NCBI RefSeq assembly: GCF_003970675.1
Contig: NZ_CP034562.1
Location: 1,550,001-1,614,000 of the forward strand
DNA from: Flammeovirga pectinis
Lineage (GTDB): Bacteria; Bacteroidota; Bacteroidia; Cytophagales; Flammeovirgaceae
Length of the DNA stretch: 64,000 bases
Direction of reading: 5' to 3'
The notes beneath the pieces are model-generated. The model had not been told where the DNA came from, did not search any database, and was given only the letters and a program-made list of their open reading frames with translations. The position numbers and the translations under genes were made by a program. Of the stretch, positions 1 to 12,309 are shown in pieces; the first letter of the stretch is position 1; every line of letters begins with the position of its first letter.

Positions 1-2
1 TA

Positions 3-434
3 TATACTGTTTCTTTATATTTAGATGAAAAATTATACGATAGTTGGAACAACGAAGATCGTTATATTTATATCTTTTTGTTAGAAAATGATGGTAGTAT
101 GCAACTTCTGTTCCCAGATAGAAACGCATCTGTAGAGAACAATACAGAGCAAATTGCTCAAGAAAAAGGGGATTATAAAAGTACAATTAAATTAGTAGAA
201 GCAGGTGAATTAGCTGTTTCTCCTCCTTTTACAACAGATAATATTTTAATGTTAAGTACTACTAGTGCTATTATTGATACTTCTATTTTTAATCAGACAG
301 GAGTAAGGTCTAGGGGTAGCGGAGAAGATGCTTCTTTAGAATCTCTGTTGGAAGAGGAAGATACAAGGAAAACAAATTCTGTTAGTAATTGGTACTTAGA
401 AAAACACACCTTTTACGGAGAAGAAGTTAACTAA
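3..434 (+). CDS. C-terminal part of a DUF4384-like protein (5' end outside window)
   Basis: The reading frame is open from base 3 and no start is visible; the first in-frame ATG (base 99) lies inside the domain, so the gene begins upstream of the window. The visible 143 residues include hydrophobic strands followed by YIYIFLLENDGSMQLLFPD and later a PPF turn. This resembles the DUF4384 domain, a beta-rich module often attached to caspase-like peptidases, kinases or secreted proteins. The end is acidic (LEEEDTRK). The N-terminal domain that would tell its role is missing. The family call is by motif impression only. Confidence 0.5.
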   Translation, partial: YTVSLYLDEKLYDSWNNEDRYIYIFLLENDGSMQLLFPDRNASVENNTEQIAQEKGDYKSTIKLVEAGELAVSPPFTTDNILMLSTTSAIIDTSIFNQTGVRSRGSGEDASLESLLEEEDTRKTNSVSNWYLEKHTFYGEEVN

Positions 435-440
435 AAAAGA

Positions 441-474
441 AAGCCTATCAAACTTAAATTTGATAGGCTTTTTT
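441..474 (+). terminator. Intrinsic terminator between convergent genes
   Basis: A perfect 12-bp inverted repeat (441-452 with 459-470, arm AAGCCTATCAAA) with a 6-base loop is followed by a T run. An A run precedes it, so it can also stop the convergent gene ending at 479. Confidence 0.85.
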
Positions 475-478
475 GTGC

Positions 479-1213
479 TTAATGAATAAACCAATTTCCT
501 AAGAAATGCGGAAGCATCTGACGCCAAGTAGGCCAATCATGATGAATATCGTGACCCCATACTTCTAAATGGTTATGGATGCCTTTTGCATTTAAAACAT
601 GTGATAATTCAATAGCAGCAGATGGTTTTTCGTGGTTACCTTGTCCGGTTGCTAAAACAATTTCTTTTTGTTTTAATTGATCAATGATATAATGATCATT
701 CCACCCCGGTAAATAACTTAAAGGTGAATTAAAGAATGTAAGATCATCAGCATATCCTTTTGTATAAGAATGTAACTGGTAATCGCCACTCATTGCAATT
801 AAACCCCAAAATAAATCAGGACGCTTAAAGAAGATATTTGCTGAATGTAAAGCTCCAAAAGAAGCACCTGATAGAATAATTGGAGTGTGTCCTCCGCAAT
901 CATTAAAAATGTAAGGAACTACCTCGTCATAGATATAATGATTAAAAGCTTCTTGTCTTTCAGCTTTATGTCTTGGGTGCATCTGATTGTTCATCCAAGA
1001 CTCCGTATTTATACTATTAATTGAATACACTTTAAGTTTACCGGCATCGATAAAAGGTTTTAAAGCATCAATTAATTGAAATCTTTCGTATTCTAAAAAG
1101 TCTGCAGCAGCAGTAGGGAATAAAAGTAATGCAGGTCCATAATGACCATAACTTACTATATCCATCCATTTATTTAAACGTGGACTATGCCACCCACTAA
1201 TATCTCTTTTCAT
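479..1213 (-). CDS. Single-domain esterase/alpha-beta hydrolase of the ligase cluster
   Basis: A 244-residue protein of the putative esterase group (COG4947-like). The nucleophile elbow GASFGA near residue 117 gives the catalytic Ser, and GHDIHHDWP near the C terminus gives the probable catalytic His. No signal peptide is seen, so it is probably cytoplasmic. It is the last gene of a leftward set, 33 bases after the ATP-grasp gene, so co-transcription is likely. In this setting it could release or cleave an ester or amide product made by the neighbouring ligases; that role is inference. The fold assignment is fairly secure and the substrate is unknown. Confidence 0.8.
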   Translation of the reverse strand: MKRDISGWHSPRLNKWMDIVSYGHYGPALLLFPTAAADFLEYERFQLIDALKPFIDAGKLKVYSINSINTESWMNNQMHPRHKAERQEAFNHYIYDEVVPYIFNDCGGHTPIILSGASFGALHSANIFFKRPDLFWGLIAMSGDYQLHSYTKGYADDLTFFNSPLSYLPGWNDHYIIDQLKQKEIVLATGQGNHEKPSAAIELSHVLNAKGIHNHLEVWGHDIHHDWPTWRQMLPHFLGNWFIH

Positions 1214-1246
1214 TGTAGTATCTTATAAAGTTTATTTGTATTTCTC

Positions 1247-2467
1247 TTATGTAGTAGGTCTATCTCTTGTAGAAGGTAGAGTTGCAAAAAAGTCTTCGTA
1301 AAAACGAGAAGCATACTGCTCAAGTAATTCTGTTACTCTTTCTAATTTATCTGAAGAAACAATAACACCAGCATGGTATTGTTTATTCATTTTCCAAACA
1401 ACTTCCGCATCATTATATTGAGATAATTCTGGCCATTCTTGTTTAGCTAATGAAACAATGATTCCGGAATAATCATTCTTTAAAGTAGGTAAGTTGTATG
1501 TAGTATTTGTTGCAACAGCATACTCAATTTTAGCCCACTCTTTCCAAAGGTTTACATTAGATGAAGCCTCTAACATTTCTGCAATGTTTGCACCACCAAC
1601 TCTAGAAGCAGTCTCTAGAAAGATATATTTTCCCGTTGCGTGGTCTTTGATATACTCAGAATGAGATGCACCATGTTTTAAACCAAAACCACTTAAAAGT
1701 TGTTCGTTTAAAGCTAAAACTTCTTCTGTTTCTTTTGCATCATGTTCCATGGTATGTGTTCTGAAAACCCCACCATCATGTGCTACTTCCATTGGCGTAT
1801 TCATGTACCTGTGCGCACGAGAGAAAATGATTTTACCATTTAATGATAAACTATCTACGTGTAACACATCACCAGGACGGAATGCTTCTGCAAGAAAGTC
1901 ATCTCTTTCATCCCCAAGACCGTTAACAGCATCCCAAAATTCTTGATGCGTGTGCACTTTTTGGATTCCAGAAGCTGATGCTTCAGAGCGAGGTTTAATT
2001 AACCAAGGTCCTTCCACATTTTCTAGAAAATCATGAATCATTTCATTAGAGAAAAGCCCCGTAAATTTAGGTATGGGTAAGCCAAGATCTTCAGCTTTCA
2101 TTCTCATACCTAACTTATCTCTAAAATGTCTAACCGTTGTTTGCCCCATTCCTGGAGTTCTGAAATGCTCTCTAAGATAAGCCGCTTTTTCAACATCAAA
2201 ATCATCTAATGCAACAATAATATCGAAAGGTTCTTCTCTAAATTTGAAAGCCAATCCTTTGATAACGTGCTCGTAGTTCCAGTCTTTTGCTGACTGTCCA
2301 CTAAATATCATTTCATCAATGCTGTCTTTTGGCCAAGCATGATGCTCTAAATCTTTAACAGTAAGTAAAGTTACTTTTGCACCAGTTTCTTTTGCTCCAA
2401 TAAGGAAGTCTTCACCTTTGAAATAACAAGAAACACACAGAATCGATAAAGGTCTTTGATGACTCAT
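1247..2467 (-). CDS. ATP-grasp carboxylate-amine ligase
   Basis: A 406-residue ATP-grasp protein. Residues 1-110 form a Rossmann-like pre-ATP-grasp domain. LIKPRSEASASGI (156-168) carries the ATP-binding Lys158 and the flexible loop, and FLETASRVGGAN (283-294) gives the Mg-binding Glu285 and Arg289-x-Gly-Gly. This resembles carbamoyl-phosphate-synthase/biotin-carboxylase-type members. It would activate a carboxylate as an acyl phosphate and join it to an amine. It lies between an aminopeptidase and an esterase on the same strand. The 155-base gap before it holds a long inverted repeat. The substrate cannot be read from sequence. Confidence 0.88.
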   Translation of the reverse strand: MSHQRPLSILCVSCYFKGEDFLIGAKETGAKVTLLTVKDLEHHAWPKDSIDEMIFSGQSAKDWNYEHVIKGLAFKFREEPFDIIVALDDFDVEKAAYLREHFRTPGMGQTTVRHFRDKLGMRMKAEDLGLPIPKFTGLFSNEMIHDFLENVEGPWLIKPRSEASASGIQKVHTHQEFWDAVNGLGDERDDFLAEAFRPGDVLHVDSLSLNGKIIFSRAHRYMNTPMEVAHDGGVFRTHTMEHDAKETEEVLALNEQLLSGFGLKHGASHSEYIKDHATGKYIFLETASRVGGANIAEMLEASSNVNLWKEWAKIEYAVATNTTYNLPTLKNDYSGIIVSLAKQEWPELSQYNDAEVVWKMNKQYHAGVIVSSDKLERVTELLEQYASRFYEDFFATLPSTRDRPTT

Positions 2468-2491
2468 AGTACTATAAAATAGGTTTAATAA

Positions 2492-2569
2492 GTATGTTTG
2501 GAAGTTTAACTAAGGTTGAAAACAAACCACTAAGGTGTGTATTCAAAAGGGTTTATCTTCCAAACATAC
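2492..2569. repeat. 78-bp inverted repeat in the intergenic gap
   Basis: Perfect 13-bp arms (GTATGTTTGGAAG at 2492-2504 and its complement at 2557-2569) enclose 52 bases that contain two CTAAGGT copies 20 bases apart (near 2510 and 2530). There is no T run, so a simple terminator is unlikely. It may be an operator, an RNA hairpin or a remnant of a small mobile repeat. Confidence 0.6.
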
Positions 2570-2622
2570 GCTGAATTGAATGTTTATTACCTCAACTGAA
2601 AAATAGAGGTAGGGTATTTATA

Positions 2623-4065
2623 TTATTGATTAGCGATGATTTTGGCAAATTCAAGCAATAAGTGAACGCCAAAACCTGTTGCATTTCTATCTTTTCCATA
2701 GCCATTTGCAGCAAATGCTACTCCGGCAATATCTAAGTGAGCCCATTTTGTGTTTTCTTGAACAAAGGCTTCTATAAATTTAGCTGCATGGATAGCACCA
2801 GCGGCTGGGTTACCTGGGTAATTTTTTACATCGGCAACATCAGATTGAATGCCTTTATTGTACACATCCCATAATGGTAATTGCCATATTTTTTCATCAG
2901 TAGAGATACTAGCCTCAGTTAAGAGTTGTGCAGTCTCTACGTTATTACTTAACATTGCACCTGCTTCATAGCCTAATGTCATAACAGAGGAACCCGTAAG
3001 TGTTGCAATATCAACTATATGGTCAAAGTTCTTCATTTTACAAGCAAAAGAGACACCATCAGCAAGGCATAATCTACCTTCTGCATCTGTGTCAATTACT
3101 TCAATGGTTTTTCCAGAATGACTTTGAATAACGTCTCCAGGTTTTACAGAAGCACCATCTACCATGTTATCAGTAGCAGGAATGAAACCAGTAACAGCAA
3201 TAGGTAATCGCATTCCAGCAATAGCAGCAATTGCTCCAGCTACTGCAGCAGCTCCACCCATGTCACATTTCATCCAATGCATATTTTGAGAACCCTTCAT
3301 AGAAATTCCACCTGTATCGAAAGTTACACCTTTACCTACAAATGCAATTGAAGCAACTGGATTTTTTGGTGTGTATTCTAAGATAGAAAACGAAGGATTG
3401 TTTTTACTACCTGCGTTTACAGCAAGAACAGCATGTAAACCAAGTGTTTTTAAACCTTCTCTACTTCTAAAAGTAGTAGCATCAAACCCAAATTCGTTAG
3501 ATTTTGCCTCAATCTCGTCAGCAAATCCTTGAGGGTCTATAATGTTAGAAGGAGTATCAACAAGGTACATCGCCCATAATTTGGCTTCAGCTACCTTTTT
3601 GGCATCTTCAATAAGAATAATATGTTTTGCTCTATTTTCTTTAGGAAGAATAAGGTGAATATCAACATTAGTTGGTATACCTTTTAGTTGATAATGTCCT
3701 AATAGAACACCTGATATAATAGGAGAGATAACATTTTCTAAATGATCTCCTAAATGTTTTAAATTTAAAGTATATGATTTACCTACTTTATCTCGATTAG
3801 CAAAAACATGCTTTCTTACAGCATCTTCAATTACTTTAAAAGCGATAGAATCTCCAATACCCAATAATGTTACTTTTTTATCATTATTTCTTAAAACAAT
3901 TGATTCTCCTGCTTTAGCCAGAAAATCATTTTTTAAGATAGGTACAGAGATATTCCACTTTTGAGCAGCTCTTTCCAATCGTTTTTCCCAAGTAGACTCG
4001 GTATAAATTACTAACGAAGGAATTTCCCAAGATTCAGTATTATCAATTAATAAATTAGTTAACAT
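2623..4065 (-). CDS. M17 leucyl aminopeptidase family protein
   Basis: A 480-residue M17 peptidase. The two-metal site is complete compared with E. coli PepA: Lys245 and Asp250 in GKGVTFDTGG, Lys257, Asp268 in CDMGG, and Asp327, Glu329 and Arg331 in DTDAEGRL (usual form NTDAEGRL). Residues 1-160 are the variable N-terminal domain. It would remove N-terminal residues from peptides in the cytoplasm as a hexamer. It lies 32 bases after the tandem-esterase gene and upstream of an ATP-grasp gene. It may be a general peptidase or a dedicated processing enzyme of the cluster. Confidence 0.93.
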   Translation of the reverse strand: MLTNLLIDNTESWEIPSLVIYTESTWEKRLERAAQKWNISVPILKNDFLAKAGESIVLRNNDKKVTLLGIGDSIAFKVIEDAVRKHVFANRDKVGKSYTLNLKHLGDHLENVISPIISGVLLGHYQLKGIPTNVDIHLILPKENRAKHIILIEDAKKVAEAKLWAMYLVDTPSNIIDPQGFADEIEAKSNEFGFDATTFRSREGLKTLGLHAVLAVNAGSKNNPSFSILEYTPKNPVASIAFVGKGVTFDTGGISMKGSQNMHWMKCDMGGAAAVAGAIAAIAGMRLPIAVTGFIPATDNMVDGASVKPGDVIQSHSGKTIEVIDTDAEGRLCLADGVSFACKMKNFDHIVDIATLTGSSVMTLGYEAGAMLSNNVETAQLLTEASISTDEKIWQLPLWDVYNKGIQSDVADVKNYPGNPAAGAIHAAKFIEAFVQENTKWAHLDIAGVAFAANGYGKDRNATGFGVHLLLEFAKIIANQ

Positions 4066-4097
4066 TATGTATATGGTTTATGTAGTATTTCTTGTGG

Positions 4098-5750
4098 TTA
4101 ATAAAAGAGTATATTCATGGCTTCTTCAAATTCTTGACCCCAAACAGCTTCTGAATGGTTGGCATCATGATTTATTTTAAGCGGAAGGTGCTGACCTTCA
4201 AAACCTCTATCTTTTAAAATTTCAATTAACTCATCAATTTCATCTAATAGTGTTTCACTTTCTTTTCCTCCACCGTAAAAATAGATCATTGATTTCAAGA
4301 AAGGGGTAACCCTCTTGGCTAAAGCAAATATTTTACTAGAATACCACAATGATGGAGAGAAAATCATGTATTTACCAAATGCTTCTGGTCTATAAAGACC
4401 TGCATACAAGCTTACTAATCCTCCCATAGAACTTCCACCTATTCCAGTATTTTCTCTATCTTGTTTAGAAGGGAAGTTTCTATTTATGTATGGAACTAGT
4501 GTATCAACAATAAAATTAATATATCTTTTTCCGCTTCCACCTGTACCGTTTTCATCTGCAAAAGGGGCAAACTCTTCAATACGTTCTTCATCACCATGTT
4601 CAATAGCAATCACAATTATCTTCTTGCCCTGATCAATCATTTCGGACATAACCTTATGAATACCCCACATTCCAAATGGAGCATTTTTATTGAACAGGTT
4701 TTGTGCATCGTGTAAATACATAACAGGATAACGTTCCGTAAAAGAATCCCATCCTTTCGGTAACAATGCCCAAACAGCCCTTTTTTTTCCTAATTGCGGC
4801 ATATCAAACTTATCGCTGATAAGCATGATATCTACATTTGGAGCTTCGGACATAGCATCTAAATGAAACCACATTTTGTGTCTTCTTTCTGCTAATTGTT
4901 GACGGTCAGTTTTAACATAATCATTACCACCAAAAGCCCATGTTAAAAAGTTAGGTAAAACAGCAGACCAAGTATTAAAGTTATGTTCACCATCTGTTAT
5001 TTCAACATAAGTAATATCATCGTGGATATCATAACCTTTTTTGTCAAGCTCTTTAATTATATCAAGGGTATCATCTATAGAATCTATAATGCCGTTATTA
5101 TTTCTGTCAGATGTTTCGTCTTTAGTACCCGTTTGCAACCAGAATTTCAATCCTTCTTTTTTAGAAGAGTTTTGAATTGTTCTATGCATTATACGGTCTA
5201 TATCATCATTGTAATCTCCTTCGGCAGGTTTATCCCTCCACCAAAATGAACCAGAGAATACTCCAATTTTGTTAAAATATTGAGGGTAGTGCCAAGAGAT
5301 ATCTAAAGCAGCCAATCCTCCTAATGAAAAACCTGCAAAAGCAATGTCTTTTGGAGAAGAGGAAATGTTAAAGCTCTTTCTGCAATAGGGAATTAGTTCT
5401 TCAATAACAAAACGGGAAAAATCGTGTGCTTTATCTCCTCTGTTCATATAATCAGCAGAAGAAATACAGCCATATTCATCAATTCTTAAAGCACTACAAT
5501 GTATTCCTATAACCGCTATAGGGTTAATTACTTTAAGGTCATAAAGGTGATTTAAAGTAGAATACATCTGAACAGCTTCCATATCTTGTCCGTCATTAAA
5601 AAAAGCAGCCTGTATAGGAGAAGGCTCTTTTTTATGAGGAAGAAAAATAGAAAGAACTACATCTCTTCTTAAGAAATTGGAATAATAGGTCTGTTCAATG
5701 TGATCAAAATACTGATTTTCATCATTATTCTGTGATTGATGGTGGTTCAT
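4098..5750 (-). CDS. Tandem two-domain esterase (esterase D-like repeats)
   Basis: A 550-residue protein made of two esterase D-type alpha/beta-hydrolase domains. Domain 1 (about 15-275) has GFSLGG with Ser142 and GEHNFNTW with His256. Domain 2 (about 290-550) has GSSMGG with Ser441 and ANHSEAVW with His532. Domain 1 also holds an EF-hand-like loop (DRNNNGIIDSID, 215-226) that could bind calcium. Such esterases act on siderophore or ester-linked products and on acyl esters. No signal peptide is seen. It is the first gene of the leftward set, opposite the rightward ligase operon. Both domains appear catalytically intact. Confidence 0.85.
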   Translation of the reverse strand: MNHHQSQNNDENQYFDHIEQTYYSNFLRRDVVLSIFLPHKKEPSPIQAAFFNDGQDMEAVQMYSTLNHLYDLKVINPIAVIGIHCSALRIDEYGCISSADYMNRGDKAHDFSRFVIEELIPYCRKSFNISSSPKDIAFAGFSLGGLAALDISWHYPQYFNKIGVFSGSFWWRDKPAEGDYNDDIDRIMHRTIQNSSKKEGLKFWLQTGTKDETSDRNNNGIIDSIDDTLDIIKELDKKGYDIHDDITYVEITDGEHNFNTWSAVLPNFLTWAFGGNDYVKTDRQQLAERRHKMWFHLDAMSEAPNVDIMLISDKFDMPQLGKKRAVWALLPKGWDSFTERYPVMYLHDAQNLFNKNAPFGMWGIHKVMSEMIDQGKKIIVIAIEHGDEERIEEFAPFADENGTGGSGKRYINFIVDTLVPYINRNFPSKQDRENTGIGGSSMGGLVSLYAGLYRPEAFGKYMIFSPSLWYSSKIFALAKRVTPFLKSMIYFYGGGKESETLLDEIDELIEILKDRGFEGQHLPLKINHDANHSEAVWGQEFEEAMNILFY

Positions 5751-6027
5751 TAAACTTTTGATTTGAAAACAACAAGCACGGGGTCTTATACACTGTGTTA
5801 GGGCATCCTAACTTAAATCGACTGCAATGATACATCAAATAAATGAAAATACTATTGAAATTTTACAAATAATTTACAATGATTAATAATTGTTTTTGTA
5901 GCTTTGCACTCGTTATGGATAATTGATCAATTCATTTAAAGGATTAATCTTTTATTTATTACAACGATTTGGTGACCCAAATTACCCATTATAACAATAA
6001 CCTAGTCATTCAATTAAAATATTATCC
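5751..6027. promoter_or_regulatory. Divergent control region of the ligase cluster
   Basis: This 277-base region separates the two gene sets and must hold both promoters. A TAnnTTTG match (TAGCTTTG, 5899-5906) faces the rightward operon; no good -33 TTTG is seen at the right distance. A one-mismatch leftward match (complement of 5825-5832) could serve the esterase gene. The rightward leader would be about 115 bases. Confidence 0.4.
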
Positions 6028-7161
6028 ATGAAAAAAATTGGTATCCTCTTTGGTAAGGAGCGTAGTTTTCCTCAAGCTTTTATTGATAAAGTAAACGAAA
6101 TTGCTCCTAAAGGTATTACTGCAGAAGCAGTTTCTATCGACAAAGTAGTCCAAGGTAAAGCAACTGAATACGCTGTTATTATTGACCGTATTTCTCAGGA
6201 TGTACCCTTTTACCGTGCTTTCTTAAAGAACGCTGCAATTTGTGGTACAGCTGTAATCAATAACCCATTCTGGTGGAGTGCTGATGAGAAATTTTTCAAT
6301 AATGCATTAGCATTAAAAGTTGGTGTACCTGTACCAAAGACTGTTTTATTACCGTCTAACCAATGGCCTGATGATACAAACCAAGATTCTTTCACAAACT
6401 TGGCTTACCCATTAGATTGGAATAGTATTTTTGATTATATCGGTTTTCCTGCCTACATGAAACCACATGATGGTGGAGGTTGGAAAAGTGTTTATAAAGT
6501 AAATGATTCTAATGAACTTTTTGAAAAGCATGCTGAAACTGAACGTTTAGTAATGATGCTTCAAGAAGAAATTAAATTTACGGAGTACTTCCGTTGTTAT
6601 TGTTTAGGAGGTAAGTATGTTCACATCATGCCTTACGCTCCAGAAAATCAACCTCATTTACGTTATGTAGTTGATCAAGACAAACCAACTGATCCAAAAT
6701 TATTGAAAACTATCGAGGAGTATGTTCTTAAATTGAATCATGCTTTAGGGTATGATTTCAATACTGTAGAATTTGCAATCAGAGATGGTGTTCCTTATGC
6801 AATTGATTTCTGTAACCCAGCACCAGATGCAGGTTTAGAGTCAGTAGGACAAGAAAATTTTGCATGGATCGTTGAACACGCAGCTAAGTTTGCCATCGAA
6901 AGAGCAGAAGCTCAAGTAGAAGGACAAGATAACTTAACTTGGGGTACTTATGTACAAGAAGGTGTACAACAATCTTTAAAAAAGGCTGTTAAAAAAGCTC
7001 CTGTAGCAAAGAAAGCACCGGCAACACGTAAGCCTGCTGCTAAAAAAACTACAGCTGCTGAAAAGAAAACAACTGCAGCTAAAAAGGCTCCAGCAAAAAA
7101 AGCCCCAGTAAAAAAGGCAACAACTGCTAAGAAAACTTCGACAAGAGCGAAGAAAGCTTAG
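6028..7161 (+). CDS. ATP-grasp ligase with Lys/Ala-rich histone H1-like tail
   Basis: A 377-residue protein. Residues 1-315 are an ATP-grasp enzyme: an N-terminal alpha/beta domain, AYMKPHDGGGWKSV (142-155, Lys145 for ATP) and FAIRDGVPYAIDFCNPAPD (249-267), with Asp260 and Asn263 as metal ligands. Residues 318-377 are a low-complexity tail of KKA, KKAP and KKTT units with about 21 Lys, 2 Arg and a single Glu. It is like histone H1 C-terminal tails and may bind DNA, RNA or polyphosphate, or be a lysine-rich acceptor for modification. It is the first gene of the rightward operon. Confidence 0.88.
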   Translation: MKKIGILFGKERSFPQAFIDKVNEIAPKGITAEAVSIDKVVQGKATEYAVIIDRISQDVPFYRAFLKNAAICGTAVINNPFWWSADEKFFNNALALKVGVPVPKTVLLPSNQWPDDTNQDSFTNLAYPLDWNSIFDYIGFPAYMKPHDGGGWKSVYKVNDSNELFEKHAETERLVMMLQEEIKFTEYFRCYCLGGKYVHIMPYAPENQPHLRYVVDQDKPTDPKLLKTIEEYVLKLNHALGYDFNTVEFAIRDGVPYAIDFCNPAPDAGLESVGQENFAWIVEHAAKFAIERAEAQVEGQDNLTWGTYVQEGVQQSLKKAVKKAPVAKKAPATRKPAAKKTTAAEKKTTAAKKAPAKKAPVKKATTAKKTSTRAKKA

Positions 7162-7170
7162 TTTTAAATA

Positions 7171-7214
7171 ATTAAGAGTTACCAATTTTCTTAGGAGTAT
7201 TGGTAACTCTTAAT
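7171..7214 (+). repeat. 16-bp perfect hairpin between ATP-grasp and GCS2 genes
   Basis: Arms 7171-7186 and 7199-7214 (ATTAAGAGTTACCAAT and its complement) pair perfectly around 12 bases. It is not followed by T residues (GCTATATATCCCCCC), so it is probably an mRNA processing or stability hairpin or a partial terminator rather than a full stop. Confidence 0.6.
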
Positions 7215-7272
7215 GCTATATATCCCCCCTTGATAATCTTAAAAAAAACCTATTTTTACCTACTGAATTATT

Positions 7273-8418
7273 ATGAGCAAAAAATTTACAATTGGTATAG
7301 AGGAGGAGTTCCAAACTGTAAGTATGGAAGACCTATCTCTAAAGGCTCACTTGTATGAAATCCTAGATCAAGATAAGAAGTATTTTCATGAGCATGTAAA
7401 GCCTGAAATGCATAAAGCAGTTCTTGAGGTAGGAACGCATATTTGTGAAAATATCGATGAAGCTCGTAAGGATGTAGTTCGTCTTAGAAATATGGCTGCT
7501 CAAATGGCAGGAGATCAAGATCAGTATATTGCTGCTGCTGGTTCTCATCCGTTTTCTTCGTGGACAGAACAATTAATGACGGATGACCCTCGTTACAATC
7601 AAATTGTCAACGAACTTCAAGATGCTGCAAGATCAAATTTAATTTTTGGTATGCACGTTCATGTAGGAATAGAAAATCGTAACCAAGCGTTACATTTAAT
7701 GAATCAGGCGAGGTATTTCTTACCTCATATATTTGCTCTTTCTACAAACTCACCATTCTGGGAAGGTAGAAATACAGGATACATGTCTTACAGGACAAAA
7801 GTTTTTGATAAATTTCCAAGAACGGGTATTCCTGAATTTTATGCTTCTGCAGCAGAATATGATGAGTACATAGAAATGCTAACTACTACAAATTGTATTG
7901 ATAATGCAAAGAAAATATGGTGGGATATCCGTATGCATCCATTTTACAATACAATAGAATTTAGAATCTGTGATGTACAGATGACTACAGAAGAAACTCT
8001 AGCTATTGCCTCTTTAGTACAAGCGATTGTTTGTAAACTAGATAAATTAATGAGACAGAATATGTCTTTCAGAATATATAGAAGAGCATTAGTGAACGAA
8101 AATAAGTGGAGAGCCGCAAGGTACGGTTTAGAAGGCAAACTAATTGATTTTGGTAAACGTGAAGAAGTAGATTCTAAACAACTAATCTTAGAAATTCTTG
8201 ATTTTGTAGATGATGTTGTAGATGAACTTGGTAGCCGAGATGTTCTAGAAACCATTCCTGCTTTATTAGAAAAAGGAACTGGTGCTAGAAGACAATTAGA
8301 AATATTTAAGCAAACAAATAGTCTTGAAGATGTAGCTAAATATATTGTTCAAGAAACAAATAAAGACTTAGATACCAAATTACCTTGGAATTTAACAATA
8401 CCTAGTGTGGGTGTGTAA
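7273..8418 (+). CDS. GCS2-family carboxylate-amine ligase (COG2170, YbdK-like)
   Basis: A 381-residue glutamate-cysteine-ligase-type-2 family enzyme. GIEEEFQ (8-14) gives the metal/ATP-binding glutamates, GMHVHVGIENR the central strand, and WWDIRMHPFYNTIEFRICDV the family signature, here with the same spacing as in COG2170 proteins. These enzymes have a glutamine-synthetase-like fold and use ATP to join an amino-acid carboxylate to an amine. The E. coli member YbdK has weak glutamate-cysteine ligase activity. The gene is followed after 26 bases by the amidotransferase-like gene. The true amine and acid substrates are unknown. Confidence 0.9.
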   Translation: MSKKFTIGIEEEFQTVSMEDLSLKAHLYEILDQDKKYFHEHVKPEMHKAVLEVGTHICENIDEARKDVVRLRNMAAQMAGDQDQYIAAAGSHPFSSWTEQLMTDDPRYNQIVNELQDAARSNLIFGMHVHVGIENRNQALHLMNQARYFLPHIFALSTNSPFWEGRNTGYMSYRTKVFDKFPRTGIPEFYASAAEYDEYIEMLTTTNCIDNAKKIWWDIRMHPFYNTIEFRICDVQMTTEETLAIASLVQAIVCKLDKLMRQNMSFRIYRRALVNENKWRAARYGLEGKLIDFGKREEVDSKQLILEILDFVDDVVDELGSRDVLETIPALLEKGTGARRQLEIFKQTNSLEDVAKYIVQETNKDLDTKLPWNLTIPSVGV

Positions 8419-8444
8419 TTAATAAAGAACATTTTTAAAGTTTA

Positions 8445-9260
8445 ATGGGTCGATTAAGATTAGCATTGATTGATATGTACAACAAAGTTCCTAACGAAGG
8501 AATGCGTTGTATTAAAGATATCTTGGGAGAAGTAAAGGAAGAAGTTGATTATCAAATTTTTGATTTAAGAGGAGAAGATCAGCTTCCAGATACATCATTT
8601 GATATTTATTTATCTACAGGTGGACCTGGAAATCCTTTAGAAGAAGAAGGTTGGGAGCAAGGATACTTCGATTTATTGCAAAAGTTATGGGAGCATAACC
8701 TCACTCATTCAAGAAAAAAATATGTATTCTTTATTTGTCATTCATTTCAAATGGCAAGTAGATTTTTCGGTTTAGGTCAACTTTCTCAGCGACATTCAAC
8801 GGCATTTGGTGCTATGAGAGTGCACAAAACTGAAGAAGGTAAAAAAGATCCATTCTTATCTGTTTTTGGCGATACTTTTTATGCTATTGATTCTAGAGAT
8901 CATCAATTATTGAATGTGACTCAAGAGCAATTGAATAAAATAGGGGCTAAAATTGTTTGTATGGAAAAGATAAGACCGCATACAGATTATAAACGTGCTG
9001 TAATGGCTATCCGATTTTCTGATGAATTTTTTGGGACACAGTTCCACCCAGAAGCAGACGCAGAAGGGTTGATACCTTACTTTGGAGTTGACCCTCAGAA
9101 AAAAGGTATAATAGAAAAATTTGGAGAAAAGAAATTTAATAAATTGATGAAGATTTTAGAAGATCCTAGTCGATTGAATATGGCGTTTAGACCAATAATT
9201 CCTTCTTTTTTACAGTATGCTATCCAGGCATTAACGAAACAAGAAGAACCTCAAAATTAG
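8445..9260 (+). CDS. Class I glutamine amidotransferase-like protein
   Basis: A 271-residue GATase1-fold protein. The Cys98-His201-Glu203 triad is visible (FFICHSFQ at 95-102; FHPEAD at 200-205), and STGGPGNP (57-64) is the usual oxyanion loop. The nucleophile elbow is unusual: the normal GxCxGxQ is FICHSFQ, so both glycines are replaced. It may supply ammonia from glutamine to a neighbouring ligase, or hydrolyse gamma-glutamyl bonds. It lies 26 bases after the GCS2 gene and 18 before the last ATP-grasp gene, in one operon. Confidence 0.85.
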   Translation: MGRLRLALIDMYNKVPNEGMRCIKDILGEVKEEVDYQIFDLRGEDQLPDTSFDIYLSTGGPGNPLEEEGWEQGYFDLLQKLWEHNLTHSRKKYVFFICHSFQMASRFFGLGQLSQRHSTAFGAMRVHKTEEGKKDPFLSVFGDTFYAIDSRDHQLLNVTQEQLNKIGAKIVCMEKIRPHTDYKRAVMAIRFSDEFFGTQFHPEADAEGLIPYFGVDPQKKGIIEKFGEKKFNKLMKILEDPSRLNMAFRPIIPSFLQYAIQALTKQEEPQN

Positions 9261-9278
9261 TTATAACTAATAGTAAAT

Positions 9279-10469
9279 ATGATCAAGTCTTTAAGAGGAG
9301 AATTTAATAAGAATTTCTCAGACGATAAATATAAGTCACTTACTAAATATTTTGATGATAAATTTGGTGAAGAATTGGCTTTCAGAATGGCTGAAACACC
9401 AATTTTTTTTCCACCAGAATTTATCGAAAGAGTAAAAGAGGCATGTGATGACGTTGTTAAAGTTTTAAAGCGAAAAGACTTTAAAAAGATAACAGAAGAG
9501 GCAATACCGAAAGATTGTATTGTTCCAAATGAAGACGATCATACGAACTTTTTAGCGGTAGATTTTGCTGTTTGTAAAAACGAAAAAGGAGAATTAGAAC
9601 CTCAAATGATAGAGTTACAAGGTTTTCCTTCAATTTTTGCATTTAACATCTTCAAGCAAGAAGCATATAAAAAAATATATAATTTAGACGATACGTTAAC
9701 TCCGTTTTTTGATAATTCTGAACAGGAATATATCGAAAAATTGAAGAATGTTATTCTAAATGGACATGCTCCGGAAAATGTAATTTTATTAGAAATTTTT
9801 CCTGATAAGCAACATACAAGAGTTGATTTTGCTGCAACAAAAGAAGTTGTAGGTATAGAAACAGTGTGTATTACTGATGTAATTAAAGAAGGTAAAGATT
9901 TATTTTATATCAATAACGGTAAGAAAACACCAATAAAAAGGATATATAATAGACTTATTTTTGATGAAATTGAAAATTGGGAACCTTTAGACCTTCAATT
10001 TAGATTAACTGATGATGTTAATGTAGAATGGGCAGGTCACCCTAATTGGTTCTTTAGAATAAGTAAATCTCTAATGCCTTATTTGGAAAGTAAGTTTGTG
10101 CCAGAAACAAAATTTTTGACAGATTACACTACTTACCCTAAAGATTTGGAAAACTATGTTTTAAAGCCATTGTACTCTTTTGCTGGAGCAGGAGTAGTTT
10201 TTCATTTAGAGCAGAAGCATTTGGATGCAATTGCTGAAGAAGAAAGAGGAAACTATATTTTACAAAGAAAAATTAATTACGAACCAATTGTTGAAGCTGC
10301 AGACGGTGGAGATGTAAAGGTAGAAGTAAGATTGATGTTTATTTGGGCTGATAATGAAGAATCACCTGAGTTAATTGTCAATCTTTGTAGAATGAGTAGA
10401 GGAGAGATGATTGGAGTAAAATACAATCACAATAAAACTTTTGTAGGCGCTTCTATTGGACTTATGTAA
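9279..10469 (+). CDS. Divergent ATP-grasp-like ligase, last gene of the operon
   Basis: A 396-residue protein whose C-terminal third looks like ATP-grasp: ENYVLKPLYSFAGAGVVF (291-308) with Lys296 and a Gly-rich loop, NYILQRK (325-331), VEVRLMFI (348-355) with Arg351, and LIVNLCRMSRG (365-375) with Asn368 and Arg371. The order of elements, with the short motif MIELQGFPS (110-118) earlier in the chain, resembles circularly permuted ATP-grasp enzymes of peptide synthesis. The rightward operon ends after it at a strong terminator. Activity and substrate are unknown; the fold call is moderately sure. Confidence 0.72.
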   Translation: MIKSLRGEFNKNFSDDKYKSLTKYFDDKFGEELAFRMAETPIFFPPEFIERVKEACDDVVKVLKRKDFKKITEEAIPKDCIVPNEDDHTNFLAVDFAVCKNEKGELEPQMIELQGFPSIFAFNIFKQEAYKKIYNLDDTLTPFFDNSEQEYIEKLKNVILNGHAPENVILLEIFPDKQHTRVDFAATKEVVGIETVCITDVIKEGKDLFYINNGKKTPIKRIYNRLIFDEIENWEPLDLQFRLTDDVNVEWAGHPNWFFRISKSLMPYLESKFVPETKFLTDYTTYPKDLENYVLKPLYSFAGAGVVFHLEQKHLDAIAEEERGNYILQRKINYEPIVEAADGGDVKVEVRLMFIWADNEESPELIVNLCRMSRGEMIGVKYNHNKTFVGASIGLM

Positions 10470-10514
10470 AATAAAGAGGTTGTTTTAAATTCAATTAAAA
10501 CAACCTCTTTATTT
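10469..10514. terminator. Strong bidirectional terminator
   Basis: A perfect 20-bp stem (10469-10488 with 10495-10514) with a 6-base loop (centre AAGAGGTTGTTTTAA) lies between convergent genes. The A-rich and T-rich ends let it work in both directions. Confidence 0.85.
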
Positions 10515-10529
10515 ATTGTAATTTCTATT

Positions 10530-11234
10530 TTAATAAAATAATGATAAAATAGAAGGCGTTAGAAGAGCTGTGAAAATACCCATTAAACCAATGGATAAGC
10601 CACTAATTGCACCTTCAACAATACCCATTTGTATTGCTGCTGCTGTTCCAATTCCATGAGCGCAAGTACCCATTGCTAATCCTTTTCCAATTGGTTTAGT
10701 AATGCCCACTTTATGCAAAACCATTGGACCAACTGTAGCACCAAGAATTCCGACAATAATTACAAAAACTGCTGTTAGAGAGGGGATACCTCCATTCTGA
10801 AAAGAGACAGCCATTGCAATAGGTGTTGTAACAGACTTTGGAGCCATAGAAACTATAAGCGTTTCGTCTGCTCCAAATAATTTACCAACTATAATAACAG
10901 AAAGAATACCCATAACACTCCCTGCAAAAGTAGCAGCAAGAATAGTTAATGCATTTTTTCCTATTGTATGTAATTGTTCATAAAGTAAGTAACCTAATGC
11001 AACAACAGATGGCCCTAACATGAAGTTAATCATATGAGCATTTGTTTTGTAGGTCTCATAGCTAACATTGGTACTTTTTAGGATAACGATTAATGTAAGT
11101 ATAGTTAGTAAAACAGGATTTAAAATTGGACTTTTTACTTTTTGATAAATCGCTTCAAAAATTAAGAACAACCCTAAAGTAGCTGCAAGAACAAACGTTT
11201 CGCTTTCAAAAAGATGATGTAGTAATTCTTTCAT
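10530..11234 (-). CDS. lrgB: LrgB/CidB-type membrane protein
   Basis: A 234-residue integral membrane protein with about six hydrophobic segments and the family patterns MAPKSVTTPIAMAVS and GTCAHGIGTAAA. LrgB pairs with LrgA in a membrane system first linked to murein hydrolase control and programmed lysis in staphylococci, and elsewhere to glycolate/glycerate or pyruvate transport. Its start overlaps the lrgA stop by one base (TAATG), which suggests translational coupling. It is expressed away from the ligase cluster and ends at the shared terminator. Confidence 0.92.
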   Translation of the reverse strand: MKELLHHLFESETFVLAATLGLFLIFEAIYQKVKSPILNPVLLTILTLIVILKSTNVSYETYKTNAHMINFMLGPSVVALGYLLYEQLHTIGKNALTILAATFAGSVMGILSVIIVGKLFGADETLIVSMAPKSVTTPIAMAVSFQNGGIPSLTAVFVIIVGILGATVGPMVLHKVGITKPIGKGLAMGTCAHGIGTAAAIQMGIVEGAISGLSIGLMGIFTALLTPSILSLFY

Positions 11235-11578
11235 TATTTATTATCTTTTTTTCCTAAAAACTGCCCAGTATAACCGGCAGATAACATAACAGCAAACATA
11301 GAGATTACAATGGTAACTGAAATCATAAGCCAGTTTTCTTGTAAAACATCAAGATATTCCATCATTCCAACACCAGCAGGTATAAAAAATAATGACATCC
11401 TTTTAGTTAAGGACGTTGCTGCATCTTTTACCCATTGATAAGGAATAATTTTAAGATATAGACATAGAAATAGTATAACCATTCCAATCACATTACCAGG
11501 TATTGGAACCCCTGTTGCTTCATTAATTAATGTTCCTAACGCTAGCATTGTTAGGATCAGCATAAACCCGCGTATCAT
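11234..11578 (-). CDS. lrgA: LrgA/CidA-type holin-like membrane protein
   Basis: A 114-residue protein with four hydrophobic segments and PIPGNVIGMVILFLCLY followed by LFFIPAGVGMMEYL, both signatures of the LrgA/CidA (CPBP-independent, holin-like) family. It forms the membrane partner of LrgB, and the two genes overlap by one base. The transport substrate here is not known, and no lytSR-like regulator is adjacent. Confidence 0.92.
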   Translation of the reverse strand: MIRGFMLILTMLALGTLINEATGVPIPGNVIGMVILFLCLYLKIIPYQWVKDAATSLTKRMSLFFIPAGVGMMEYLDVLQENWLMISVTIVISMFAVMLSAGYTGQFLGKKDNK

Positions 11579-11718
11579 GTATTTTGTATTAAATGTTTTA
11601 ATTTTTTATAAATATACATCGATATTTCTTAAGGAATTAGTTCTATTAGATTTATTAAATAGTGGCGATTTAACGCTTTATTATGTATATTCATATAGGC
11701 TTACCACAAAAACTAGTT

Positions 11719-12309
11719 ATGAAAAGATTATCAATAGAAGAATTACTTACAAAGAAAAAATACGATGAAGTCATTATCGTGTTAGAAGAAAGAGTCGACA
11801 AATTTGAAACAGTAAATCTAGAAGAGTTTTTAATATGGGCATCTTGCTACGAGAAGAGAGGCGATTATGAAGCGGCTCTTCATGTATTATCAATTGCTTA
11901 TTTAGAAGAGTATGATTCTATCCAATTAGATAATGAATTTGATAGGATAAGAACATTGCAAGAGAATGTAAATCAAGGTATTATTCAACTCGGAGAAGGG
12001 CTAACTTCTAGCAATGAAATATCTTTGATTAAATCAACTTTTCAATCGCTTTTAGATCATAATGTATATGATGAAGCGTTAAGAATTTGGGATGATATTA
12101 TTGTTCAACTTAGAGGAAATGACATTGGAGAATTGTGGTTTGGAAACATTGCTTCCAACCTTTTTCAGAAGTTAGATGAAAACGTAATAATGAAATTACC
12201 AAATAGGAAAAAACTCCTAGATACGGTAATTTATTATTATATATCAACGTCTAAAGTATATGATTCAAATTATCAACAAGCACTTCGATTACGACAAAGG
12301 TCGTTTTAA
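11719..12309 (+). CDS. Hypothetical helical protein with TPR-like repeats
   Basis: A 196-residue acidic protein that I do not recognise. MKRLSIEELLTKKKYDEVI at the N terminus and FLIWASCYEKRGDYEAALHV look like two helix-turn-helix TPR-type repeats, so it may bind a partner protein. I take the ATG at 11719; the ATG at 11683 would add a 12-residue extension unlike the rest. It has no signal peptide or membrane segment. It is convergent with the OmpA gene, with only 6 bases between stops, and lies divergently from lrgA. Function unknown. Confidence 0.65.
   Translation: MKRLSIEELLTKKKYDEVIIVLEERVDKFETVNLEEFLIWASCYEKRGDYEAALHVLSIAYLEEYDSIQLDNEFDRIRTLQENVNQGIIQLGEGLTSSNEISLIKSTFQSLLDHNVYDEALRIWDDIIVQLRGNDIGELWFGNIASNLFQKLDENVIMKLPNRKKLLDTVIYYYISTSKVYDSNYQQALRLRQRSF

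Follow-up and report, generated by a model that had tools for sequence, protein, structure and literature searches.

Gene neighbourhoods that bring several unrelated ligases together with peptidases and other modifying enzymes were reportedly described in the 2009 amidoligase survey of Iyer et al. The locus analysed here lies in a 64,000-nucleotide stretch of the Flammeovirga pectinis genome (the window), and it resembles those neighbourhoods in that several unrelated ligases, a peptidase and modifying enzymes occur together. The survey is cited in the accessible portions of PMC4431377 and PMC8939145, and the open-licence literature that we searched, to which the survey itself does not belong, does not describe the set. 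In the E-64 and dapdiamide pathways (for E-64, the excerpts of PMC12568646) a small pseudo-peptide is put together by free-standing ligases that act one after another, which is a likeness to our locus, and the E-64 ligase Cp1B (9cjn) is a fold neighbour of one of its ligases, GSPl (Z 22.2 against the GSPl model). The eight genes of the window differ from these pathways in that, by Pfam and family profiles, they include neither an oxygenase nor an adenylating amide synthetase and have esterases and a YbdK-type ligase instead.

Three further systems share single ligase types with the locus. Glutathione and glutathionylspermidine synthesis likewise combines a GCS2-type ligase with a ligase of the GSS/YgiC fold, but the window set adds RimK-like and L-amino-acid-type ligases, and GSPl does not reach the Pfam GSP_synth cut-off (15.8 against 29.3 bits). 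L-amino acid ligases of the RizA/BacD type (4wd3, 3wo1) are matched by the grasp1 profile; however, grasp1 has an M17 aminopeptidase and an esterase as partners, and no known antibiotic genes lie beside it in the window. The R2K clade (PMC4431377, seen in part), for which the criterion is a conserved pair of lysines in the RAGNYA domain, gives weak Pfam matches to the RimK-like protein, but the scores lie under the curated cut-offs (R2K_2, 22.3 against 26.2 bits; R2K_3, 16.9 against 26.3 bits), RimK is the closest fold, and the gene contexts given in the accessible part of that paper do not name the window set. The accessible part of PMC11036162 reports an operon for sugar use that includes a RimK-type ligase.

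Layout of the eight-gene set

The sequence-only reading of this DNA had described eight genes with three ATP-grasp enzymes, a GCS2-type ligase, a GATase1-like protein and an M17 aminopeptidase, in two sets diverging from a 277-base control region. All eight ORFs are intact across 479-10469 on the strands given in Table 1, their content was confirmed by ORFs, Pfam, family profiles and structural models, and the intergenic region from which the arms diverge is exactly 277 bases long. Three esterase domains in two proteins had also been proposed, and PF00756 indeed matches estA once and the fused esterase in two stretches. The set has ATP-dependent ligases of four kinds (L-amino-acid-ligase type, RimK-like, YbdK-type and YgiC/glutathione-synthetase fold). 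Comparison with other genomes divides it into two modules: module A consists of an esterase, estA, the RimK-like ligase, the YbdK-type ligase, the amidotransferase (GAT) and the YgiC/GSS-fold ligase (GSPl), and module B of an esterase, the M17 aminopeptidase and the L-amino-acid-ligase-type ATP-grasp (grasp1). The sigma-70 consensus is unsuited to Bacteroidota promoters, and matches to it in positions 1-12000 were fewer (34) than in shuffled sequence (50.2).

Table 1. Positions of genes and other features at the locus, numbered from the first base of the window.
Feature	Coordinates	Strand	Basis or remark
Terminator-like hairpin closing the minus arm, outer end	440..471	-	
estA (PF00756 alpha/beta hydrolase)	479..1213	-	Pfam, alignment
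grasp1 (L-amino acid ligase type ATP-grasp, module B)	1247..2467	-	profile match 4wd3
M17 aminopeptidase (module B)	2623..4065	-	PF00883, 352.4 bits
Fused esterase, whole gene	4098..5750	-	PF00756, two stretches
Fused esterase C-half, residues 286-550	4098..4895	-	counterpart of module-B esterase
Fused esterase N-half, residues 1-285	4896..5750	-	counterpart of module-A divergent esterase
Divergent intergenic region, 277 bases	5751..6027	.	between the arms
RimK-like ATP-grasp ligase (module A), Lys/Ala-rich C-terminal tail	6028..7161	+	model, profiles
Inverted repeat, 16-base arms, 100% complementary	7171..7214	+	gap between RimK-like gene and GCS2
GCS2 (YbdK-type carboxylate-amine ligase, module A)	7273..8418	+	NF010039, 1r8g
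GAT (class I glutamine amidotransferase-like, module A)	8445..9260	+	Pfam, Cys-His-Glu intact
GSPl (YgiC/glutathione synthetase-fold ATP-grasp ligase, module A)	9279..10469	+	model, profiles
Terminator-like hairpin closing the plus arm, outer end	10469..10514	+	

Family and fold assignments

The three ATP-grasp genes each score under the Pfam curated cut-offs (19.6 against 27, 22.3 against 26.2 and 15.8 against 29.3 bits); the assignments hold despite these scores because family profiles and structural models match. The grasp1 profile matched the L-amino acid ligase 4wd3 (E 4.9e-27, profile residues 47-308) and BacD 3wo1 (E 1.2e-10), so that by its sequence grasp1 is of the L-amino acid ligase type and is predicted to form dipeptides. 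GCS2, with a Pfam domain score of 194.5 bits, passed the curated cut-off of NF010039 (YbdK/PRK13515; 510.2 against 371 bits) and matched YbdK 1r8g (E 7.4e-65); it is a YbdK-type carboxylate-amine ligase by family, with the corresponding activity predicted. The GSPl model aligned over the whole protein (residues 1-396) with YgiC 7uk8 (Z 25.0, rmsd 3.6, 341 aligned), followed by YjfC (Z 24.6), human glutathione synthetase (24.4) and GSP synthetase (24.1), the GSS entries lying within about 1 Z of 7uk8, whereas other ATP-grasps gave Z of about 8 or less, except 3k1t at 12.2. Ligase and amidotransferase residues are conserved across the aligned relatives.

The closest fold to the RimK-like model was RimK 5zct (Z 21.1, rmsd 2.9, 261 aligned, model residues 2-295), with LysX/ArgX within 1 Z unit of it, and the protein did not reach the curated cut-off of TIGR00768 (34.3 against 143.4 bits). 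Among 25 family members, K145 is invariant, K153 is replaced by Arg in 3 (Lys in 22) and K157 by Arg in 6 (Lys in 19). Could this ligase modify ribosomal S6 or some other protein by adding residues, the rest of the set making, editing or removing the tag? Besides the fold match, a basic tail in 12 of 25 family members, an apparent rpsF (named by eye) about 5 kb upstream in the window genome (L231:3074-3442) and the proposal, in the accessible part of PMC4431377, that R2K-clade relatives are protein modifiers speak for such tagging. However, LysX/ArgX, which make amino acids, are also close (Z about 20), no ribosomal gene is among the 25 commonest neighbour families, and the dipeptide ligase, aminopeptidase and several esterases of the set better suit a small molecule; we therefore regard protein tagging as improbable.

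GAT passed the class I GATase Pfam cut-off (28.2 against 22.8 bits), its triad (C98, H201, E203) is kept in 19 of 19 aligned members, and homoserine O-succinyltransferase is the only relative of solved structure that it has at E 0.001. As its role, gamma-glutamyl cleavage is as likely as ammonia supply. In eight relatives of the M17 aminopeptidase the strict motifs GKG..DTGG and NTDAEGR were found in six and three, respectively, with at least one motif in each. EstA reached 24.7 bits against PF00756 (cut-off 22) and, in the aligned set, shares 28-35% identity with the estA found ahead of the RimK-like gene in relatives. The fused esterase reached 164.5 bits. Its N-half is 45-50% identical to all seven module-A esterases compared, which elsewhere diverge from the plus arm, and its C-half 43-49% identical to all five module-B esterases compared, which belong to a separate esterase-M17-ligase operon (both groups were picked by hand from 94 est2-like ORFs). 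The window esterase is thus a Rosetta-stone fusion that physically joins modules A and B.

Conservation of the two modules

In the genus (nine genomes), the RimK-like, GSPl and grasp1 genes are present together in three genomes and all missing from six, and two of these six (G204 and G205) have an empty site without the whole ~10 kb block. The eight genes, to judge from these sequences, are inherited as one block, and the set is dispensable because it is carried by only three of the nine members. LrgAB (10530-11578) adjoins the set in the three carriers, yet G204 and G205 retain it at their empty site, and it was rejected as a member; LrgB is present in only 4 of the 198 phylum genomes sampled.

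Across these 198 genomes, the RimK-like gene was found in 72, about a third (including three distant matches of 33-42% identity, G007, G087 and G160), GSPl in 60 and grasp1 in 43. All 43 grasp1 genomes and 58 of the 60 GSPl genomes also carry the RimK-like gene (P 5e-5 by within-family shuffling, the floor of the test), and module B is absent from 29 of the 72. Counting one row per genome, the RimK-like gene lies within 6 kb of GSPl in 35/58 genomes (34/58 with best rows only, since for G066 the contig-cut GSPl row on C136, by the RimK-like gene, was used over the better C133 row) and within 6 kb of grasp1 in 7/43. M17 and grasp1 lie within 1 kb of each other in 13/43 grasp1 genomes, a count that took in 21 of 72 M17 rows and M17 genes at E 1e-80 or stronger only; the remaining M17 rows of the grasp1 genomes G079, G125, G137, G031 and G035 are, by eye, on other contigs or distant.

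The module A order was found in 80 named loci and is carried by named strains of Pedobacter, Dyadobacter and Mucilaginibacter; several of these loci end at contig ends, so that counts of distal genes are lower bounds. In the relatives L069 and L194, all eight functions are collinear on one strand. Gene calls were the longest ORFs, which are split or shifted at a few loci (e.g. L093, L112 and L158), and neighbours were counted among labelled ORFs and unlabelled ones of >150 aa. Distant families rebuild the set with the same kinds of parts, e.g. CP_ATPgrasp_2 or M29, and in seven of their loci (L197-L200, L203-L205) the RimK-like gene stands without another labelled cluster gene in the 12-20 kb examined. 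Relatives show a neighbourhood of the multi-ligase amidoligase type, in which several ligases and a peptidase are kept together; the peptidase is limited to loci with module B and to L067, where it is an M29. The plus arm with its esterases is the widespread core, and the M17-ligase module is found in fewer genomes.

Are the two arms unrelated operons that became neighbours by chance? Modules A and B are indeed >40 kb apart or on different contigs in 33 of the 43 grasp1 genomes. We nevertheless rejected this reading as barely credible on the esterase fusion, the empty site, the joint presence or absence in the genus, the collinear order in two relatives and the 43/43 co-occurrence. On the same five lines of evidence the arms are co-conserved in relatives, a point on which the sequence-only reading had staked its single pathway. 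Its view of one uncharacterised multi-ligase set of peptide/amide type with linked arms stood, but the arms are not equally conserved, as the smaller number of module-B genomes and the distance between the modules show.

Neighbour clustering at L041-L160 yielded families limited to particular lineages, and the most frequent of them occurred in 22 loci. Around grasp1 (20 loci, L211-L230), grasp1 itself (17), an esterase (7) and M17 (4) recurred in at least three, and nothing else did; further core genes were rejected on these grounds. By eye, the commonest families at L041-L160 resemble YceI, Crp, pirin and an EF-like GTPase, and none of the 25 commonest unlabelled families (ORFs >=60 aa) looks like a graspetide-type precursor peptide gene. 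Anti-phage defence was discarded with 0/8 proteins matching PADLOC at E 1e-5, as was plasmid spread, because a search of 72,556 plasmid records at E 1e-10 gave no match to the RimK-like protein.

The neighbours also bear on a role in catabolism or detoxification through temporary ligation, comparable to gamma-glutamyl-putrescine use, in which a ligase would mask an amine or acid, esterases, an amidase or a peptidase process it and GAT unmask it. The hydrolases are numerous, Amidohydro_3 proteins adjoin module-A genes in L072 and L075, a sodium:solute symporter adjoins GSPl in L053 and shares one frame with it in L057, and in the genus the set is an accessory trait. For breakdown, however, three to four ATP-dependent ligases are costly, and by family clustering transporters and oxidoreductases do not recur in the 80 named loci, so that we consider temporary ligation unlikely.

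Candidate pathway and product

The esterase fusion, the co-occurrence, the proximity and the empty site place the grouping of the eight genes beyond chance. We favour, as the probable explanation, that the eight genes work as a unit and encode a cytosolic pathway, independent of NRPSs, in which one small metabolite of peptide or amide type is assembled and trimmed. We infer substrates, order of steps and product from sequence as follows. The module-B ligase would join two amino acids, the RimK-like ligase would add a residue via a carboxyl phosphate, the YbdK-type enzyme would form a gamma-glutamyl or other carboxylate-amine bond, and the YgiC/GSS-fold enzyme would cap the chain with a last residue, an amine or a polyamine. 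The amidotransferase may feed ammonia to a ligase or strip a gamma-glutamyl group, and the aminopeptidase and esterases may take off surplus or protecting groups and recycle incorrect products. Module B would extend or remodel the module A product in some of the species. Two observations on the esterases count against such a pathway: three esterase domains exceed its needs, and the window estA, with Asn193 at the family's Asp position, is without that Asp.

The product is perhaps a gamma-glutamyl-type peptide or amide. A more specific form, which we hold as a tentative possibility, is a glutathione-like gamma-glutamyl peptide, perhaps conjugated to a polyamine. GCS2 would make gamma-Glu-X and the GSS/YgiC-fold enzyme would add a third residue or a polyamine; the amidotransferase would act as a gamma-glutamyl peptidase, M17 would trim the dipeptide and the PF00756 enzymes would cleave acyl (thio)esters. 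Plant GGP1 works in this way as a gamma-glutamyl peptidase, and each of the set's other parts has a counterpart in glutathione turnover. The YbdK type of GCS2 and the nearest folds of GSPl (YgiC/YjfC, human glutathione synthetase and GSP synthetase) also fit, YgiC and YjfC being termed peptidylpolyamine synthetases in the accessible part of PMC12568646. On the other side, the bacillithiol synthesis marker bshC occurs in 196 of the 198 genomes (192 over the cut-off), with or without the set, and for this reason a second thiol is not obviously needed and the set as the sole low-molecular thiol system is unsupported. In addition, the one solved relative of GAT at E 0.001 is the succinyltransferase named above, and the RimK-like enzyme is without a clear place.

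Multi-ligase sets are a known theme with mostly unknown products, and the two-module set with its fused esterase looks undescribed. It stands out by a clear boundary (the empty site), by the fusion that links its components and by wide conservation (RimK-like gene in 72/198). With these features and the named module-A strains, what such clusters make is therefore directly testable. It is conceivable, if rather unlikely in this full form, that about a third of the sampled Bacteroidota genomes (72/198 by the RimK-like marker) encode the making of an undescribed glutathione-like or polyamine-capped oligopeptide by stand-alone ligases, tuned by esterases and aminopeptidases, and that some lineages, that of the window among them, remodel it via a second ligase-peptidase module now physically fused to the first. 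For amide-bond chemistry, the set is a source of new stand-alone ligases.

The eight genes and their ligase families

All eight genes claimed by the sequence-only reading were present as intact ORFs exactly where it had placed them, and the two arms diverge from a gap of exactly 277 bases, as it had stated. Its M17, GCS2 and GATase1-like calls were upheld by Pfam and NCBIfam (class I GATase for GAT), with GCS2 scoring over the curated NCBIfam cut-off as YbdK/PRK13515 type, and Pfam likewise found the proposed three esterase domains in two proteins. Scored singly, the three proteins called ATP-grasp enzymes were each under the Pfam cut-off. Therefore we used family profiles and structure models, which supported the call for all three. 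The grasp1 profile matched the L-amino acid ligase 4wd3 (E 4.9e-27). The model of the RimK-like protein (mean pLDDT 79.8, stretches <50 confined to the C-terminal tail) matched RimK 5zct (Z 21.1, rmsd 2.9, 261 aligned), and that of GSPl (mean pLDDT 90.4) matched YgiC (Z 25.0, rmsd 3.6, 341 aligned). The scores of glutathione synthetases and GSP synthetase were only just lower, and RimK/Ddl-type ATP-grasps reached Z near 8 or less. The residues kept in the ligases, which we take to bind ATP or metal, were K145, E248, D260 and N263 in the RimK-like family (25/25 aligned), E112, K296, K331 and E349 in GSPl (23/23) and K158, E285 and R289 in grasp1 (21/21). GAT kept Cys98, His201 and Glu203 in 19/19 aligned.

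Features of the gene set and its surroundings
Feature	Window position	Location	Detail
estA	479-1213	minus arm	PF00756 x1
grasp1	1247-2467	minus arm	ATP-grasp
inverted repeat	2492-2569	155-base gap grasp1/M17	19-base arms, 89%
M17	2623-4065	minus arm	aminopeptidase
fused esterase	4098-5750	minus arm	PF00756 x2
divergence region	5751-6027	between arms	277 bases
RimK-like	6028-7161	plus arm	ATP-grasp
RimK-like C-terminal tail	6985-7158	plus arm	long, Lys/Ala/Thr-rich
inverted repeat	7171-7214	111-base gap RimK-like/GCS2	16-base fully complementary arms
GCS2	7273-8418	plus arm	YbdK type
GAT	8445-9260	plus arm	class I GATase
GSPl	9279-10469	plus arm	ATP-grasp
LrgB/LrgA pair	10530-11578	adjoins set

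The tail of the RimK-like protein has a histone-like look, and 12 of the 25 aligned family members carry a tail of >=15 residues with >=25% Lys+Arg. In estA, Asn193 replaces the Asp of the family consensus, so the protein may be altered; its identity to the aligned family is only 28-35%. The gene is distant from the RimK-like gene, whereas relatives have the two close together. Terminator-like hairpins stand at the outer end of both arms, and the repeat behind the RimK-like gene may act in processing or attenuation. What looks by eye like an rpsF-rpsR-rplI operon lies about 5 kb upstream, outside the window (L231:3074-4174, this genome's own DNA). S6 is the RimK target in other bacteria. Genes of this type were not among the commonest neighbour families at other loci.

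Two modules and their linkage

At least 584 RimK-like stretches were confirmed in the genome collection, and we surveyed the best 80, several of them cut by contig ends; judged by name, the titles that give a group are all of Bacteroidota. The recurrent order was esterase (divergent), estA, RimK-like, GCS2, GAT, GSPl, with RimK-like labelled in 78 loci, GCS2 in 72, the divergent-type esterase in 68, estA in 54, GAT in 53 and GSPl in 51. Same-strand neighbour pairs (RimK-like to GCS2 67, GAT to GSPl 49, estA to RimK-like and GCS2 to GAT 46 each) were spaced by 7.5 to 55 bases in the median. These six genes are module A. The minus-arm markers grasp1 and M17 were scarce in the same loci (1 each); esterase, M17 and grasp1 form module B, the minus arm, which occurred without module A nearby at L212, L221 and L226, with M17-grasp1 alone at L218. 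M17 lay <=1 kb from grasp1 in 13/43 grasp1 genomes.

Are the two modules one unit? We looked for co-conservation of both arms in relatives, as implied by the sequence-only reading, and found it in esterase fusion, collinear order, joint presence and absence, an empty site and co-occurrence. These five lines of evidence indicate that modules A and B are joined as one unit. The 550-aa esterase is a fusion of module-A and module-B esterases: residues 1-285 share 45-50% identity with 7/7 module-A esterases compared and residues 286-550 share 43-49% with 5/5 module-B esterases, cross matches being 22-28%. The one-strand order est, M17, grasp1, estA, RimK-like, GCS2, GAT, GSPl occurs in G012 (L069) and G095 (L194), genomes of one genus. 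Of 38 relatives, 9 carried RimK-like and GSPl, always together, and 6 of these 9 also had grasp1; within the window's own genus all three were present in 3/9 genomes and none in 6/9. In two of these six non-carriers (G204, G205) the whole block is absent as one piece, from after the left neighbour (end near window 434) to about 10,526, and the left neighbour and LrgBA are close together with a single ORF between; for G198, G200 and G202, the 20 kb examined did not show the expected flank genes, and the contig of G201 was too short. The small ORF at the empty site encodes 136-146 aa (L243:13373-13783, L244:6087-6527). The LrgB/LrgA pair adjoins the set, yet stays at the empty site; LrgB relatives occur in only 4/198 phylum genomes.

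Across those 198 genomes, RimK-like was present in 72, GSPl in 60 and grasp1 in 43, and RimK-like accompanied GSPl in 58/60 and grasp1 in 43/43 (P 5e-5 for each, the floor of a test that shuffled within 14 mixed families, 82 genomes). RimK-like lay <=6 kb from GSPl in 35/58 genomes and from grasp1 in 7/43.

Variants in distant families

Distant families rebuild the set from other parts of the same kinds. Loci L191-L193 hold RimK-like, a 450-470-aa protein, GAT, esterase and grasp1, the extra protein of L191 being CP_ATPgrasp_2 (37.3 bits, cut-off 32); its counterpart in L206 scored 20.9 bits, under that cut-off. A protein of this type, identified by a scan of L191, stands between RimK-like and GAT in L191-L193, L195 and L196, and L195 and L196 are without grasp1 in the stretch examined. 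In L067, GCS2 and GSPl flank an M29 aminopeptidase; L074 has a look-alike, judged by eye, and Amidohydro_3 proteins are present in L072 and L075. The swapping of one peptidase or ligase type for another across families points to a need for both ligation and trimming. A sodium:solute symporter adjoins GSPl in L053, and an 867-aa ORF at L057:8636-11239 has symporter and GSPl domains in one frame, either as a genuine fusion or through loss of a stop codon. RimK-like was without any other labelled cluster gene in stretches from seven distant genomes (L197-L200, L203-L205), and GSPl likewise in the stretches examined of L052-L054, L057, L061, L063, L073 and L075; such lone loci speak against a fixed set.

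A putative assembly line

Beyond the observed gene linkage and protein families, we infer all substrates and the step order. Linked ligase genes often act one after another, as argued in PMC4431377. The whole set would most likely be an assembly line of stand-alone ligases making one small peptide or amide. In this scheme grasp1 would form a dipeptide, the RimK-like enzyme would lengthen it, the YbdK-type GCS2 would add a gamma-glutamyl-type bond, and GSPl, with its YgiC/GSS fold, would cap the product with a residue, amine or polyamine; YgiC and YjfC are named peptidylpolyamine synthetases in PMC12568646. GAT would supply ammonia or remove gamma-glutamate, and the aminopeptidase and esterases would serve trimming and recycling. 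The product might take a glutathione-like form, against which speaks the presence of bshC in 196/198 genomes. Inspection of the eight N-termini by eye showed no signal peptide, so the proteins behind this small peptide or amide probably work in the cytosol.

Multi-ligase amidoligase neighbourhoods are a known kind. The two-module set with its fused esterase was not found in the open-licence literature searched, a scope without the 2009 survey likeliest to contain it. We regard the set as a variant of such a neighbourhood, with the small peptide or amide as its candidate product.
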